A DNA stretch of 64,000 nt, taken from the NCBI RefSeq assembly GCF_000235565.1, contig NC_017527.1, forward strand, positions 1,922,001 through 1,986,000, written 5' to 3'. Positions 51,323 to 56,044 of the stretch are shown piece by piece. Position 1 is the first letter of the stretch, and every line of letters starts with the position of its first letter. A program made the translations under genes and the position numbers. The DNA comes from Methanothrix harundinacea 6Ac. GTDB taxonomy: Archaea; Halobacteriota; Methanosarcinia; Methanotrichales; Methanotrichaceae. Below the pieces are notes generated by a model. It was not told where the DNA came from, made no database searches, and saw only the letters and a list, made by a program, of their open reading frames with translations.

Positions 51323-51652
51323 ATGGGGACTGAAATGACGGGCTCAAACAAAGAGGAAGAGGGATCCCTCGACGAGATTCTATATATCCTCAGTAAGAAC
51401 AAGCCAGTTCTCGCCGAGCGCTACAAGGTGAAATCTCTTGGCGTCTTCGGCTCCCAGGTGAGGGGCGAGGCTCGGAGAGATAGCGATGTCGACATCCTGG
51501 TGGAGTTCGAGGAGACCCCAGACCTCTTCAGGTTCATGGACCTGGAGGATGACCTGGTCGCTCTTCTCAGGCGAAGGGTGGACCTGGTCACAAAGCGCGC
51601 TCTAAAGGGCAATATTGGAAAGAGGATCCTGAGCGAGGTCGTTGAGGTGTGA
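51323..51652 (+). CDS. mntA: MntA-type minimal nucleotidyltransferase (antitoxin)
   Basis: A 109-residue minimal nucleotidyltransferase. The catalytic motif GSQVRGEARRDSDVDILVEF has Gly-Ser at 43-44 and the Asp pair at 55 and 57. MntA neutralises HepT by adding AMP residues to it. The ATG at 51323 is the first; ATG 51335 is an alternative. A TATTTATATT element lies about 35 bases upstream. The stop overlaps the HepT GTG start (GTGA). Confidence 0.9.
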   Translation: MGTEMTGSNKEEEGSLDEILYILSKNKPVLAERYKVKSLGVFGSQVRGEARRDSDVDILVEFEETPDLFRFMDLEDDLVALLRRRVDLVTKRALKGNIGKRILSEVVEV

Positions 51653-51987
51653 AAGAAAAAAGAGACCATCTCGATTATCTGCAGGATATACTCTCCATGA
51701 TCGAAAAGGTCGAGGAGTTTACCGAAGACCTTTCTCTGGAGGAGTTCGAGGAGAGCGAGATGGTTTACTTTGCTGTGATCCGCGCACTCGAGGTCATGGG
51801 GGAGGCCGCAAAGCAAGTCCCTACAGAGGTGAAACGGAGGTATCCGGAAGTCCCCTGGAGCAGAATGGCCGGTATGAGGGATAAAATGATCCACGGATAC
51901 TTCGGAGTAGACCTGCATATCGTTTGGGAGACGGCAACTCGTTCCATCCCCAATACAATCATTCGCTCACCTCATACAGCATCATAA
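51649..51987 (+). CDS. hepT: HepT-type HEPN RNase toxin
   Basis: A 112-residue HEPN (DUF86) protein. The RNase motif R-x4-H is at Arg77 and His82 (RDKMIHGYF), with Tyr84 in the position modified by MntA. The rest (DYLQDILSMIEKVEEF, FAVIRALEVMGEAAKQVP) fits the family. The GTG start overlaps the MntA stop. Together they form a type VII toxin-antitoxin pair. Confidence 0.92.
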   Translation: MKEKRDHLDYLQDILSMIEKVEEFTEDLSLEEFEESEMVYFAVIRALEVMGEAAKQVPTEVKRRYPEVPWSRMAGMRDKMIHGYFGVDLHIVWETATRSIPNTIIRSPHTAS

Positions 51988-52278: not shown

Positions 52279-53574
52279 ATGCCCGACCCTCTCCGGAAGA
52301 TCGAAGACCTGGCCTGCGCCCTCCAGGAGCTACGCCTCCACGTAGGCGCCGCCGACCTCCAGGTGGCGGACCGGAAGGTGAACGGCCAGCTCTACCTCTC
52401 CCTCGCCAACGCCTGTCTGAGGAACAGGGCGGCCCTCCTCTACGGCGGGATGGGGGCGAACAAGACGACTCTGGTGAACCTTTTGGGCTCGGCCTTCACC
52501 GGCCTCTCCTTCGACGAGGTGGAGAACCTGATGATCACCGGCCACCCGGAGCAGACCGAGGAGAAGATCGTGGGTTTCATCGACCCGCGCCAGTGGTCCT
52601 GCCTCCCCCACCCGTCGGGATCTCCGGGCGAGGAGCCCTCACCCATCCAGGTCCTCTGGACCCCCTGGGCCCGATCGAGGTGGAAGGTGATAAACGAGAT
52701 CAACCGGTTCCCCTCCGGAAAGCAGAACCTCTTCCTCGAGCTCCTCCAGAAGAGGAAGATCGGCTACGCTGGAGAGACCCTGGAGCTCGGAGACACCTGC
52801 TACTTCGCCACCATGAACCCGGACTTCTCCGCCACTTACCCCCTGGACGAGGCGCTCCTCGACAGGATATCGATCTCTGTCCCGGCGGCCCAGCCCGACT
52901 TCCTCGCCGGCCTAGCCCTGGCGGAACGGGAGCGGGAGGTCTCCGAGCTGGCGGAGGCCCTTCCGAGGCTCACCGCCGAGGAGTTTAGGGAGCTGCCAGG
53001 GCTCGTCGCAGGAGTCCGCCTCGACGGCCAGGTGGAGCTCTCGATAATATCCCTCCTCCGGGACTTCACCCTCTGTGAGAGGGCCCCCTCCTTCGACAAG
53101 ACCCAGCTCACGGGCGGATCGAAGCCGAGCCGGGGGCTCTGCGCCGGATGCCACTACTTCAACAACCCCGAGGTCTGCTGCTGGCAGGTGGACGAGGGGC
53201 TCTCCGACAGGGTGAGGCAGGACCTCAGGTCCTACACCAGGGCCGTCGCCCTCCTCCTCGGCCTCGACGGCTCCGACGGGTTGATCGAGGTCATGAGGGC
53301 CGTCGCCCCTTACGTCATCTGGCATCGGGTCTCCCCCGACAGGACGATGCTGGAGCGCCCCCCCTACTACGGAGCCGGGCGGCTCCAGTACGTCCGGGAC
53401 CTCGTCGAGAAGAGCATCAACAGGACCCTGAACGAGAGGGGCGAGATGAACATCATCTTCGCCCGGGCCGTCGACGGCGAGATCTCTTCACAGGAGGCGC
53501 TGGAGGAGCTCTCAAAGAGCGACGACCCGATAGCGAGGCTCGACTATGTCAAGGCCCTGGAGAGGATGGTTTGA
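52279..53574 (+). CDS. MoxR-type AAA+ ATPase with unusual Walker residues and a Cys cluster
   Basis: A 431-residue AAA+ ATPase of the MoxR/Mg-chelatase group. The P-loop reads GGMGANKTT (56-64), with Asn61 where Gly is normal. Walker B reads KVINEINR, with Asn139 in place of Asp and Glu140 kept. Sensor 1 is CYFATMNPDFSATYPLDEALLDRI, normal for the family. A cysteine group (Cys266, Cys288, Cys291, Cys300, Cys301 in CAGCHYFNNPEVCC) follows and may bind Zn or Fe-S. The gene starts a three-gene operon; its stop overlaps the next TTG start. MoxR proteins pair with VWA partners to remodel or load cofactors into target enzymes. Target unknown. Confidence 0.88.
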   Translation: MPDPLRKIEDLACALQELRLHVGAADLQVADRKVNGQLYLSLANACLRNRAALLYGGMGANKTTLVNLLGSAFTGLSFDEVENLMITGHPEQTEEKIVGFIDPRQWSCLPHPSGSPGEEPSPIQVLWTPWARSRWKVINEINRFPSGKQNLFLELLQKRKIGYAGETLELGDTCYFATMNPDFSATYPLDEALLDRISISVPAAQPDFLAGLALAEREREVSELAEALPRLTAEEFRELPGLVAGVRLDGQVELSIISLLRDFTLCERAPSFDKTQLTGGSKPSRGLCAGCHYFNNPEVCCWQVDEGLSDRVRQDLRSYTRAVALLLGLDGSDGLIEVMRAVAPYVIWHRVSPDRTMLERPPYYGAGRLQYVRDLVEKSINRTLNERGEMNIIFARAVDGEISSQEALEELSKSDDPIARLDYVKALERMV

Positions 53575-54407
53575 AGCTGAAGGGGCTGATGGAGGAGGCG
53601 TACCGGGGAAGGGTGAGGGAGAAGAAGAGGCTTGAAGAGAGGAGGGGCGAGTTTCTCCTGGGGTTTGAGGACCTGGCCGCGAGGCTGAAGGAGAGGCCGA
53701 AGAGGGAGGAGGTGGAGCTCCTCGCGCCCCAGGACGGCGAATCGATCCGGGAACTCCTCATGTCCGCCTCCCCCCGGGACAAGAAGGAGGGAACGATCTG
53801 GGGATATCTCACCAGCATCGCCGCTGAGAGGCTCCCATCGCCCCTGGTGATCCCCCCCCGGAACTATGCGGGGCTGGAGCTGGCGGGTGGGACTCTGATC
53901 CTGGACGGCGGAACGCCCCCCTCCGGCGGGGCGGAGAAGGCTCCTTGGAGGAGGGCTCACCACCTGGGGGAGAGGATGTCGGGGGGGAGGCTCGTCGTCC
54001 TGGGTGGCGCTGGCGACTACCTGGGGCAGGAGATGAGGGGCGGGGGGATTGTAGCCCTCTCCTGCGGGGATTACGCCTTCAGGAAGATGGCCGGCGGATG
54101 GGGTGTCGTCCGGGGGGCGGCTGGAAACTACCTGGCTGTAGGAAACTCCGGAGGGAGGGTGGTGGTGAAGGGCGGGGCAGGGGCGAGGTCGGGGTGGCTG
54201 ATGAGGTCGGGTAGGATCAGAATAGGTGGAGATGCGGGCGAGTACCTGGGGCTGATGATGAGGGGAGGGGAGATCTCGGTCGGGGGCGGGGCCGGAGCCA
54301 GGGCCGGCTGGAGGATGAAGGGCGGCCTGATCGAGGCCGGGGATTACGGTCCGGAGGCGGGGGCTGAGAGGGTTGGGGGGAGACTCCTCCGAAGAGAGGA
54401 TCTCTGA
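53571..54407 (+). CDS. FwdC-like GXGXG beta-helix protein in a MoxR-VWA operon
   Basis: A 278-residue protein. The first 130 residues are charged and helical (MEEAYRGRVREKKRLEERRG). From about residue 136 there are six or seven 18-20-residue turns such as GGRLVVLGGAGDYLGQEMRGG, GRVVVKGGAGARSGWLM, RIRIGGDAGEYLGLMMRGG and EISVGGGAGARAGWRMKGG. This Gly-rich pattern is the right-handed beta-helix of formylmethanofuran dehydrogenase subunit C and glutamate synthase GXGXG domains. The TTG start overlaps the MoxR stop (TTGA), with GGAGAGGATGG upstream; ATG 53589 is a second option. No catalytic residues seen; a docking or structural role is inferred. Confidence 0.8.
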   Translation: MKLKGLMEEAYRGRVREKKRLEERRGEFLLGFEDLAARLKERPKREEVELLAPQDGESIRELLMSASPRDKKEGTIWGYLTSIAAERLPSPLVIPPRNYAGLELAGGTLILDGGTPPSGGAEKAPWRRAHHLGERMSGGRLVVLGGAGDYLGQEMRGGGIVALSCGDYAFRKMAGGWGVVRGAAGNYLAVGNSGGRVVVKGGAGARSGWLMRSGRIRIGGDAGEYLGLMMRGGEISVGGGAGARAGWRMKGGLIEAGDYGPEAGAERVGGRLLRREDL

Positions 54408-55917
54408 GATCTGGGAGAGGTCCAGGTCCAACTGGCACCGCCCCCAGCTCCCAAGGCCGATCGTCTACGGGTCCGGAGGGGGCGAGGGGTTTCCCTTCAG
54501 AAGCTATCGGATCGTCGTCGGGGAAGATGAGCTTGAGAGGGGCGATCTCTATATCGAGAACCTCTTCGACCACCTGATCGTCCACTACCTCTTATGCCCC
54601 CGGTCCCTCGATACGGCGGGAAGGCTCGCCCTGGCGGCCCTGGCCGGCCTTGAGGGCCGCTCCGATGGCCTGGCGAGGCGGATGGTGAACATCTTCTCCG
54701 ACATCGTCGTCGATACCTTCCGCCTCCAGAGGAGCGAGGAGGACGAGGAGAAGGTCCTCCTCGGCTGGAGGGAGCTGGCAAGGCGGGAGCTATCACCCCT
54801 GGACGGGGCGGTGGTGGGGCTGTTGGGGCTGCTCTGGGGGGTAGACCTACCCTGCCGGGACCGGCCTGAGGCGGAGGAGCTCCTCTCGATCTTCAGCTGG
54901 GGGGTGAAGGATAGGTCGAGGTGGCCGAGGCAGTGCCAGCAGATGGCGAGGACCCTCGGGGCCCTGGCCCCGGGGATCCTGGGGGGCGGGAGGGTTCCAT
55001 CGATGGAGGGGCTGGGAGGAGACGCTCCCTCGCCCCCCCTCTCGGGGATAGCCTCGGAGGTGGAGCCGGAGGAGTACCGCAAGGCCCTCTCGGTCCTGGG
55101 GATCGATGGGGACCTCGTCCGATGGTACCGGGACCAGAGCTACAGCATCGTGATCAGGCCTGCAGGGATCGCCAAAAAGAGCTTCTACCCCTCGGGGCTC
55201 GTCAAGTGGAGGTTCTCGGATCCTCCCAGCGAGCTGGACGTCCCCTACTCCCTCAGCCTCGCGCCCCGGCTCATCCCCGGAGTCACCACCTACAGGAGAA
55301 GCCAGGAGTGGTGCGGGATGAAGGCGGGGAGCGAGCGGGTCCCCGACCTCCTCGTCGTCCTGGACAGCAGCGGCTCGATGGACGGCCACCGCCGGGGGAC
55401 GAAGACCCACGCGGCGACCCTCGCCGCCTTCAAGGCGAGCATCTTCGCCCATTCCCGGGGGGCGGAGGTGGCGGCGATCAGCTTCAGCGACCGGATGGTT
55501 ATCCAGAAGTGGACGAGGGATATAGCCGCCGTAGAAATGGTCCTCGTCCAGCACCTGGGGTCCCGGACCCACATCCCCGGCCAGGAGGTGCTGAATCTCA
55601 CGAAGGAGAGGCCCGGCTGCCTCATCCTCTGCATCACCGACACCCACATCCAGAACCTCTACGGCGAATGGGAGGCCATCCAGGAGGCGGCAGCCATAGG
55701 AAGGTTCGTCCTCTTCTCCATCGACGAGGCTAACAAGAACAGGCTGGTGGAGGAGGCCCTCGGAGAGCTGGGAGCCGTCTACCACATAAACCGCCTCGAC
55801 GACCTCCTCTCCCTCGTCATCGAGACCGCCGAGGAGGCCTATCGCCCCCGGGAGGCTCGGCGGGGGCGGAGCAACGGGGAAAGTTTTATCTCCTCCGAGC
55901 GAATGGGGTCAGGCTGA
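54373..55917 (+). CDS. VWA-domain protein, partner of the MoxR ATPase
   Basis: A 514-residue cytoplasmic protein. The N-terminal 300 residues are mainly helical with no clear family. The C-terminal von Willebrand A domain (about 325-490) has a full MIDAS: DSSGS at 331-335, Thr in SRTHIPG, and Asp in CITDTHIQN. The only start is TTG 54373, which overlaps the previous gene by 35 bases. In CbbO, NorD and CoxE systems, a VWA protein recruits the AAA+ partner to its client metalloenzyme. No signal peptide. A tRNA gene begins 4 bases after its stop, and the tRNA promoter lies inside its 3' end. Confidence 0.85.
   Translation: MGGDSSEERISEIWERSRSNWHRPQLPRPIVYGSGGGEGFPFRSYRIVVGEDELERGDLYIENLFDHLIVHYLLCPRSLDTAGRLALAALAGLEGRSDGLARRMVNIFSDIVVDTFRLQRSEEDEEKVLLGWRELARRELSPLDGAVVGLLGLLWGVDLPCRDRPEAEELLSIFSWGVKDRSRWPRQCQQMARTLGALAPGILGGGRVPSMEGLGGDAPSPPLSGIASEVEPEEYRKALSVLGIDGDLVRWYRDQSYSIVIRPAGIAKKSFYPSGLVKWRFSDPPSELDVPYSLSLAPRLIPGVTTYRRSQEWCGMKAGSERVPDLLVVLDSSGSMDGHRRGTKTHAATLAAFKASIFAHSRGAEVAAISFSDRMVIQKWTRDIAAVEMVLVQHLGSRTHIPGQEVLNLTKERPGCLILCITDTHIQNLYGEWEAIQEAAAIGRFVLFSIDEANKNRLVEEALGELGAVYHINRLDDLLSLVIETAEEAYRPREARRGRSNGESFISSERMGSG
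55883..55890 (+). promoter_or_regulatory. TATA box of tRNA-His inside the VWA coding region
   Basis: GTTTTATC lies 31-38 bases before the tRNA 5' end and within the last codons of the VWA gene. Confidence 0.5.
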
Positions 55918-55920
55918 AGT

Positions 55921-55993
55921 GCCGGGGTAGGGTAGTTGGACATCCTTTGGGACTGTGGATCCCATGACCCGGGTTCGAATCCCGGCTCCGGCC
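55921..55993 (+). tRNA. tRNA-His (anticodon GUG)
   Basis: A full cloverleaf. Acceptor stem GCCGGGG pairs with CTCCGGC (one G-U). The D arm contains GGGTAGTTGGACATCC. The anticodon arm UGGGA/UCCCA holds a CUGUGGA loop with anticodon GUG. The T arm is CCGGG-TTCGAAT-CCCGG. The discriminator C73 is the tRNA-His identity base; CCA is not encoded (CTA follows). The base before G1 is T, so G-1 would be added after transcription. Confidence 0.95.
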
Positions 55994-56044
55994 CTAACTA
56001 ACCGACCGATTTTCCATCACCATCCCCCACCTATTCATTCCCCC

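Follow-up and report, generated by a model that had tools for sequence, protein, structure and literature searches.

An archaeal gene trio of a MoxR-type ATPase, a FwdC-like beta-helix protein and a VWA protein: a conserved unit and a candidate remodelling machine

Introduction

What could be the function of an archaeal operon in which overlapping genes encode an ATPase, a beta-helix protein and a von Willebrand factor A (VWA) protein? The question is raised by a locus of Methanothrix harundinacea 6Ac, within a 64,000-nucleotide stretch of contig NC_017527.1 (positions 1,922,001 to 1,986,000 of the forward strand) that is called the window here and numbered from its first letter. Three overlapping genes on the + strand, at 52279-55917 and exactly where the original prediction had put them, encode a MoxR-type AAA+ ATPase (AAA), a protein with a beta-helix like that of subunit C of formylmethanofuran dehydrogenase (GX; the dehydrogenase and its subunit are Fwd and FwdC), and a VWA protein (Table 1). 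Pairs of AAA+ and VWA proteins such as CbbQ/CbbO, NorQ/NorD and CoxD/CoxE activate or load metal centres in their target enzymes. Archaea of the Methanothrix type are major producers of methane from acetate, and the trio operon is near-universal in their family, the Methanotrichaceae; the literature surveyed assigns it no function. The analysis supports the conserved unit of MoxR ATPase, VWA partner and FwdC-like beta-helix that had been proposed. Its composition, believed from the outset to be new, was met nowhere in the literature surveyed, which left out preprints and most subscription papers.

A conserved three-gene unit

The GX start codon, TTG, lies inside the TTGA that holds the AAA stop, giving a 4-base overlap, and GX and VWA overlap by 35 bases. 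In comparisons with close relatives, the ratio of nonsynonymous to synonymous substitution rates (dN/dS) lies within 0.12-0.29 for each of the three genes. The trio is under purifying selection, and its genes, which overlap, are co-transcribable. A class-level search of 238 genomes, with the VWA protein as marker, found it in 45 of 50 Methanotrichaceae genomes (10 of 11 genera; named members Methanothrix, Methanocrinis and Methanosaeta) and in none of the 188 other genomes of the class. The trio is single-copy in the family, and its genes are adjacent at 33 of the 34 Methanotrichaceae loci fetched; at the remaining locus (L064) the contig stops inside GX. Gene order is mostly retained, with overlaps mostly of 4 bases and of 23-41 bases. 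Since the genes stay together at nearly every locus, mostly keep their overlaps and show low dN/dS, their association goes beyond chance. When all open reading frames within 9 kb of the trio were clustered, no other gene accompanied it at more than 8 of the 35 loci; the operon is therefore self-contained and tied to no enzyme.

The unit recurs elsewhere in other arrangements. An AAA profile finds a distant group, at 25-28% identity, in a single further family of the phylum (f10), probably the Archaeoglobaceae. Of the 12 loci in this second family, seven have AAA, VWA and one or more GX genes in succession, the complete order being AAA-VWA-GX1-GX2. Profile-profile comparison of Methanotrichaceae with the second family gives E-values of 1.8e-31 for AAA, 5e-22 for the GX beta-helix and 1.1e-20 for VWA (hhalign, over 449 columns, N-terminal domain included), all of them pairwise values without database calibration. 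In a control, the generic MoxR proteins encoded in these genomes reached only about 20-37 bits with the AAA profile, and their matches were confined to the core. In one genus (g75) AAA is detached, and VWA and GX1 are still together on a separate contig. The other recurrence is in Candidatus Altarchaeum, of another phylum, with AAA at 51% identity; three of its four genomes have the VWA protein, for which the fourth yielded no hit. Here a protein of about 575 residues consists of two fused GX units (L158:3920-5650, L160:5632-7347), and the AAA, VWA and GX genes are unlinked, at separate places. Other phyla were covered by one collection scan with Methanotrichaceae-type patterns. A plasmid search using the VWA protein gave no match, and viral contigs searched with the AAA profile held no relative.

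Co-occurrence was scored in 393 genomes of the phylum, at thresholds above 60 bits for AAA and above 250 bits for VWA. Both proteins are present in 26 genomes, AAA alone in none, VWA alone in two (metagenome-assembled genomes 80% and 68% complete) and neither in 365. Within the second family, VWA is found in all 12 AAA-bearing genomes versus 2 of the 22 others (Fisher p 1.7e-7, which overstates the co-occurrence, the genomes being related by a tree and not independent). This pattern, together with the four different gene arrangements, shows that AAA, VWA and GX are one functional unit. The three-gene unit originally predicted, which hung on the genes staying adjacent in relatives, has thus gained ground: the trio forms a block throughout the Methanotrichaceae, and two more lineages have it as well.

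Bacterial conflict (defence) systems of the MoxR-vWA ternary kind, such as the VMAP systems, share the logic of a MoxR ATPase, a vWA protein and a third protein (PMC7159879), and the trio might be counted among them. That assignment is disfavoured and very improbable. The trio is single-copy and near-universal in its family and evolves slowly, as its dN/dS values show; it has no effector domains or extra domains and no PADLOC match, and its third component is not a VMAP, iSTAND, FtsH or beta-propeller protein. The sole neighbouring pair that looks like a toxin-antitoxin system lies just upstream, at 51323-51987 (+), and is not generally kept beside the trio: relatives of its HEPN-like gene stand upstream of the trio in 6 loci only. 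This pair combines MNT nucleotidyltransferase-like and HEPN-like genes and, read off the sequence, presumably resembles a type VII toxin-antitoxin pair.

Table 1. Features of the trio locus (window positions)
Feature	Position	Strand	Basis
MoxR-type AAA+ ATPase gene, first of the operon	52279..53574	+	ATG start, TGA stop, 431 aa; AAA_3
Variant Walker A GGMGANKT, Asn61 replacing the usual P-loop Gly	52444..52467	+	GG[MI]GANKT in 32/32 full-length orthologs
HPEQTEEK motif, ATPase subfamily signature in all three lineages	52543..52566	+	H89, P90, E91, Q92, E94, E95, K96 invariant (alignment A7)
Variant Walker B WKVINEINR, Asn139 replacing the usual Asp, catalytic Glu140 retained	52681..52707	+	INE in 32/32
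Cysteine cluster GLCxGCHY...CW (C288, C291, H292, C301), lid region	53134..53184	+	Invariant in Methanotrichaceae
GX gene: N-terminal helical segment and FwdC-like beta-helix	53571..54407	+	TTG start, 278 aa
GX N-terminal helical segment, GYLTS(I/L)AAE motif	53571..53900	+	Helices in model; Altarchaeum homology
Right-handed beta-helix, GXGXG / FwdC-like repeats	53952..54332	+	Profile, model, Foldseek
VWA gene	54373..55917	+	TTG start, 514 aa; 32 full-length orthologs, 21 rows in alignment A3
N-terminal domain of about 260 residues, mostly helical	54373..55152	+	Alignments and predicted structure
C-terminal VWA domain, complete MIDAS	55342..55842	+	Alignment, Foldseek

The ATPase and the VWA protein

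The AAA protein matches Pfam AAA_3 above the cut-off (E 1.5e-6), and its closest solved structure is 2r44 (E 2.7e-14). It has no NCBIfam match (protein P0001), so no curated NorQ, CbbQ, CoxD or chelatase subfamily model fits. The 32 full-length Methanotrichaceae orthologs keep the Lys-Thr of Walker A, the DR arginine and the WHR arginine, and Glu140, sensor-1 Asn180, Arg196 and Arg350 are invariant. The Walker A Asn is common to Methanotrichaceae and Altarchaeum, with a canonical GSGKT in the second family; Walker B reads INE in Methanotrichaceae and IDE, with Asp, in both other lineages. From this distribution, the Methanotrichaceae ATPase acquired two substitutions in its nucleotide site, which then became fixed. 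Asn in both Walker motifs provides a natural test of how far an AAA+ nucleotide site can be altered under selection. The cysteine cluster of the lid region is a possible metal site; it takes the form CxGCHYxxxxC in the second family and is not retained in Altarchaeum.

The VWA protein matches VWA_2 below the cut-off (E 9e-4). Its metal-ion-dependent adhesion site (MIDAS) is complete and invariant (D331-x-S333-x-S335, T399, D423), the residue between D331 and S333 being variable. The model of the VWA domain finds integrin I domains and the NorD VWA domain (9qh8_G) in Foldseek. The N-terminal domain has no Pfam match, and none to DUF2201. An HExxH motif (HEICH) is present in Altarchaeum only; it is HxxxH (HLIVH) in Methanotrichaceae, and the motif is lost in most second-family members. 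A structure search with the protein is dominated by its VWA domain and adds low-TM (template modelling score) fold matches to phage VWA and metallopeptidase proteins. These features are suggestive only, and point to a possible ancestral metallopeptidase-like (zincin) domain. Bar the two fixed Walker substitutions, the trio retains its nucleotide-binding, arginine-finger, sensor and MIDAS residues. The protein identities given in the original prediction (MoxR AAA+, GXGXG beta-helix, VWA with complete MIDAS) have therefore stood, whereas the noncanonical Walker motifs and the N-terminal domain of the VWA protein had been overlooked.

Several neighbours of these genes were seen in single lineages. 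In 4 of the 12 second-family loci (L132, L133, L136, L139) a radical SAM gene, presumably COG0731-like, lies directly upstream of AAA on the same strand; as it is not general, it was set aside as a part of the system. In two Altarchaeum loci (L103, L104) AAA has a TYW1-like radical SAM gene on its upstream side, and the double-GX gene of Altarchaeum comes right after a gene like that for subunit D of V/A-type ATP synthase. In the window, a tRNA-His gene (anticodon GTG, 55921-55994, +) starts 4 bases past the VWA stop on the same strand.

The beta-helix protein

The AlphaFold model of GX (pLDDT 88, a per-residue confidence measure) consists of N-terminal helices and a beta-helix. Its match to the GXGXG domain is below the cut-off (E 7e-6). 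The best matches are to FwdC: TIGR03122 at E 4.6e-20, chains 5t5i_C and 8rja_C in Foldseek (prob 1.00, TM about 0.47) and, for the GX profile against the PDB, 9sfi at E 3e-23. However, the TIGR03122 score of 71.9 bits falls short of the cut-off, 130.65, and Altarchaeum GX, at 121 bits, is likewise under it. The N-terminal segment is homologous to segments of Altarchaeum GX (hhalign E 2.4e-7). A simple diverged FwdC was considered and rejected, because GX scores below the cut-off, has an N-terminal segment of its own and coexists with a genuine FwdC elsewhere in the same genomes; nor is the GX gene beside fwdA, fwdB or fwdD in the trio neighbourhoods. The predicted resemblance to FwdC thus holds for the fold and the best matches, but GX is not FwdC itself. 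Neither is it an enzyme subunit that diverged and has nothing to do with the other two proteins, as the original prediction had allowed: VWA and GX are linked without AAA, and true FwdC genes lie elsewhere in the same genomes.

Is GX a tool of the ATPase or its substrate? The main rival to an adaptor role would make GX the client, or else a structural part of some enzyme that the AAA/VWA pair matures. FwdC and glutamate synthase show beta-helices of this kind as subunits or domains of enzymes, the VWA-GX1 linkage without AAA in g75 is as might be seen for a client and its chaperone, and the duplication of GX, as two genes or as a tandem fusion, fits a structural assembly. We nevertheless find this account doubtful, given that no catalytic partner gene is conserved beside GX in any lineage and that GX carries an extra N-terminal segment absent from FwdC.

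A candidate remodelling machine

In NorQ/NorD, the AAA+ protein is a hexamer, the VWA protein is its co-chaperone, the MIDAS contacts the client and ATP is needed (PMC9976466). In the known MoxR/VWA pairs, ATP serves to reshape the client so that a cofactor can go in or an inhibitor come off. By analogy, and from the conservation of the trio as a unit and the motifs that it retains, we consider it probable that the three proteins form a single ATP-driven remodelling machine of the MoxR/VWA kind, to which GX adds a dedicated third part. The AAA+ protein would form a hexameric ring, and the VWA protein would act as its co-chaperone, the MIDAS metal gripping an acidic residue of the client. On the simplest reading, GX would be the adaptor that docks the AAA/VWA pair on the client through its FwdC-like surface. 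ATP hydrolysis would then strain the client, allowing insertion of a cofactor or the resetting of an inhibited site. If GX is a docking adaptor, an enzyme accepting a FwdC-like beta-helix becomes the first suspect; the likeliest class of client would be an enzyme that normally binds such a helix, with Fwd/Fmd first. That the client is formylmethanofuran dehydrogenase (Fwd/Fmd) is a guess, made with little confidence.

A number of observations weigh against a remodelling machine. In none of the lineages does the trio have a linked enzyme gene, unlike NorQD, CbbQO and CoxDE, which are encoded beside their enzymes. The changes from Gly to Asn in Walker A and from Asp to Asn in Walker B may leave the protein with an ATP turnover that is weak or altered. 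The N-terminal segments of GX show no demonstrable homology between Methanotrichaceae and the second family (hhalign E about 0.15). One 93% complete Methanotrichaceae genome (G189) is without both AAA and VWA, and at least one near-complete genome of the family (G218, 96%) is without AAA and has only broken pieces of VWA, one with an internal stop, so that in this species the system has apparently decayed; given these two genomes, the system is dispensable. The relatedness of the genomes, noted with the Fisher test, and the presence of Fwd outside the system, described below, count on the same side.

The client question

All system-bearing genomes tested, those of Altarchaeum among them, have FwdB and FwdC, but many genomes that lack the system have Fwd just as well. 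This distribution is no more than compatible with Fwd as client. A dedicated maturation or repair system for Fwd/Fmd, in which GX would mimic FwdC on the FwdAB core and AAA/VWA would open the complex for insertion of the tungsten or molybdenum cofactor, draws on the same co-presence and on the FwdC matches of GX. We rate it as rather unlikely: relatives without the system have Fwd all the same, the GX match spans the generic beta-helix only, and fwd genes are not linked to the trio in the genomes. The more pointed proposal that a FwdC decoy docks the ATPase ring on Fwd, or on a close relative, and so inserts or repairs the tungsten or molybdenum cofactor would be an unlikely one. If true, it would make the trio a new archaeal class of MoxR/VWA machine and supply a missing maturation factor, one with rewritten Walker A and B motifs, for the step with which one-carbon metabolism begins in methanogenesis and the acetyl-CoA pathway. 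In Altarchaeum, the genuine FwdC is a lone gene among unrelated genes (L161:7416-8252) and FwdB is on another contig; the Fwd genes there are dispersed.

Glutamate synthase, the other target named in the original prediction, fares worse. GXGXG domains occur in this enzyme and give weak profile matches to GX, so an accessory system for it might be imagined. These matches are far below those to FwdC, however, and an intact, full-length glutamate synthase core is absent from five system-bearing genomes, namely all four Altarchaeum genomes and G397 (99% complete). As a general client, glutamate synthase is therefore ruled out, unless clients vary from lineage to lineage, and an accessory role is scarcely credible. 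In the 9-kb flanks of the 35 loci, linkage of the trio to fwd/fmd or to glutamate synthase is nowhere conserved.

Comparison with known systems

To judge by analogy, the trio would work like the MoxR/VWA pairs, and it belongs to none of their named subfamilies. It is closest in layout to NorQ/NorD of Paracoccus denitrificans, which inserts FeB into cNOR and likewise joins a MoxR-clade AAA+ protein to a VWA protein with an extra N-terminal domain and a C-terminal MIDAS. Unlike NorQ/NorD, the trio has a third, beta-helix gene, altered Walker motifs, a lid cysteine cluster and no client gene nearby, and it gives no significant sequence match to the NorQ or NorD families. We know of no FwdC-like third component in CbbQ/CbbO, CoxD/CoxE or RavA/ViaA. 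These pairs follow the same two-gene MoxR/VWA logic (PMC4660213, PMC4240915, PMC3893208). They have known partners or clients, among them Rubisco, CO dehydrogenase and respiratory complex I.

The bacterial MoxR-vWA ternary systems (VMAP, iSTAND, FtsH, beta-propeller; PMC7159879) are likewise gene blocks of three components built on MoxR and vWA. In contrast to them, the trio is archaeal, slow-evolving, not multi-copy and without effectors, and its third part is FwdC-like. With the Mg and Co chelatases (BchI/ChlI, BchD, CobT-like) the likeness is faint: the second-family AAA weakly matches BchD and BchI (NCBIfam E 2e-4, far below cut-offs) and AAA_lid_2, and phage CobT-like VWA proteins are among the viral fold matches of the VWA protein; no chelatase H/N subunit was seen near the trio. 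FwdC itself (TIGR03122; 5t5i, 9sfi, 8rja) shares with GX the right-handed beta-helix and the G-rich repeats. Unlike FwdC, GX scores below the family cut-off, has extra N-terminal helices, lies outside fwd operons and coexists with a genuine FwdC. The known MoxR/VWA pairs each tend one enzyme, and the presence in the trio of a part resembling a subunit of a central one-carbon enzyme makes the question of its client directly testable.

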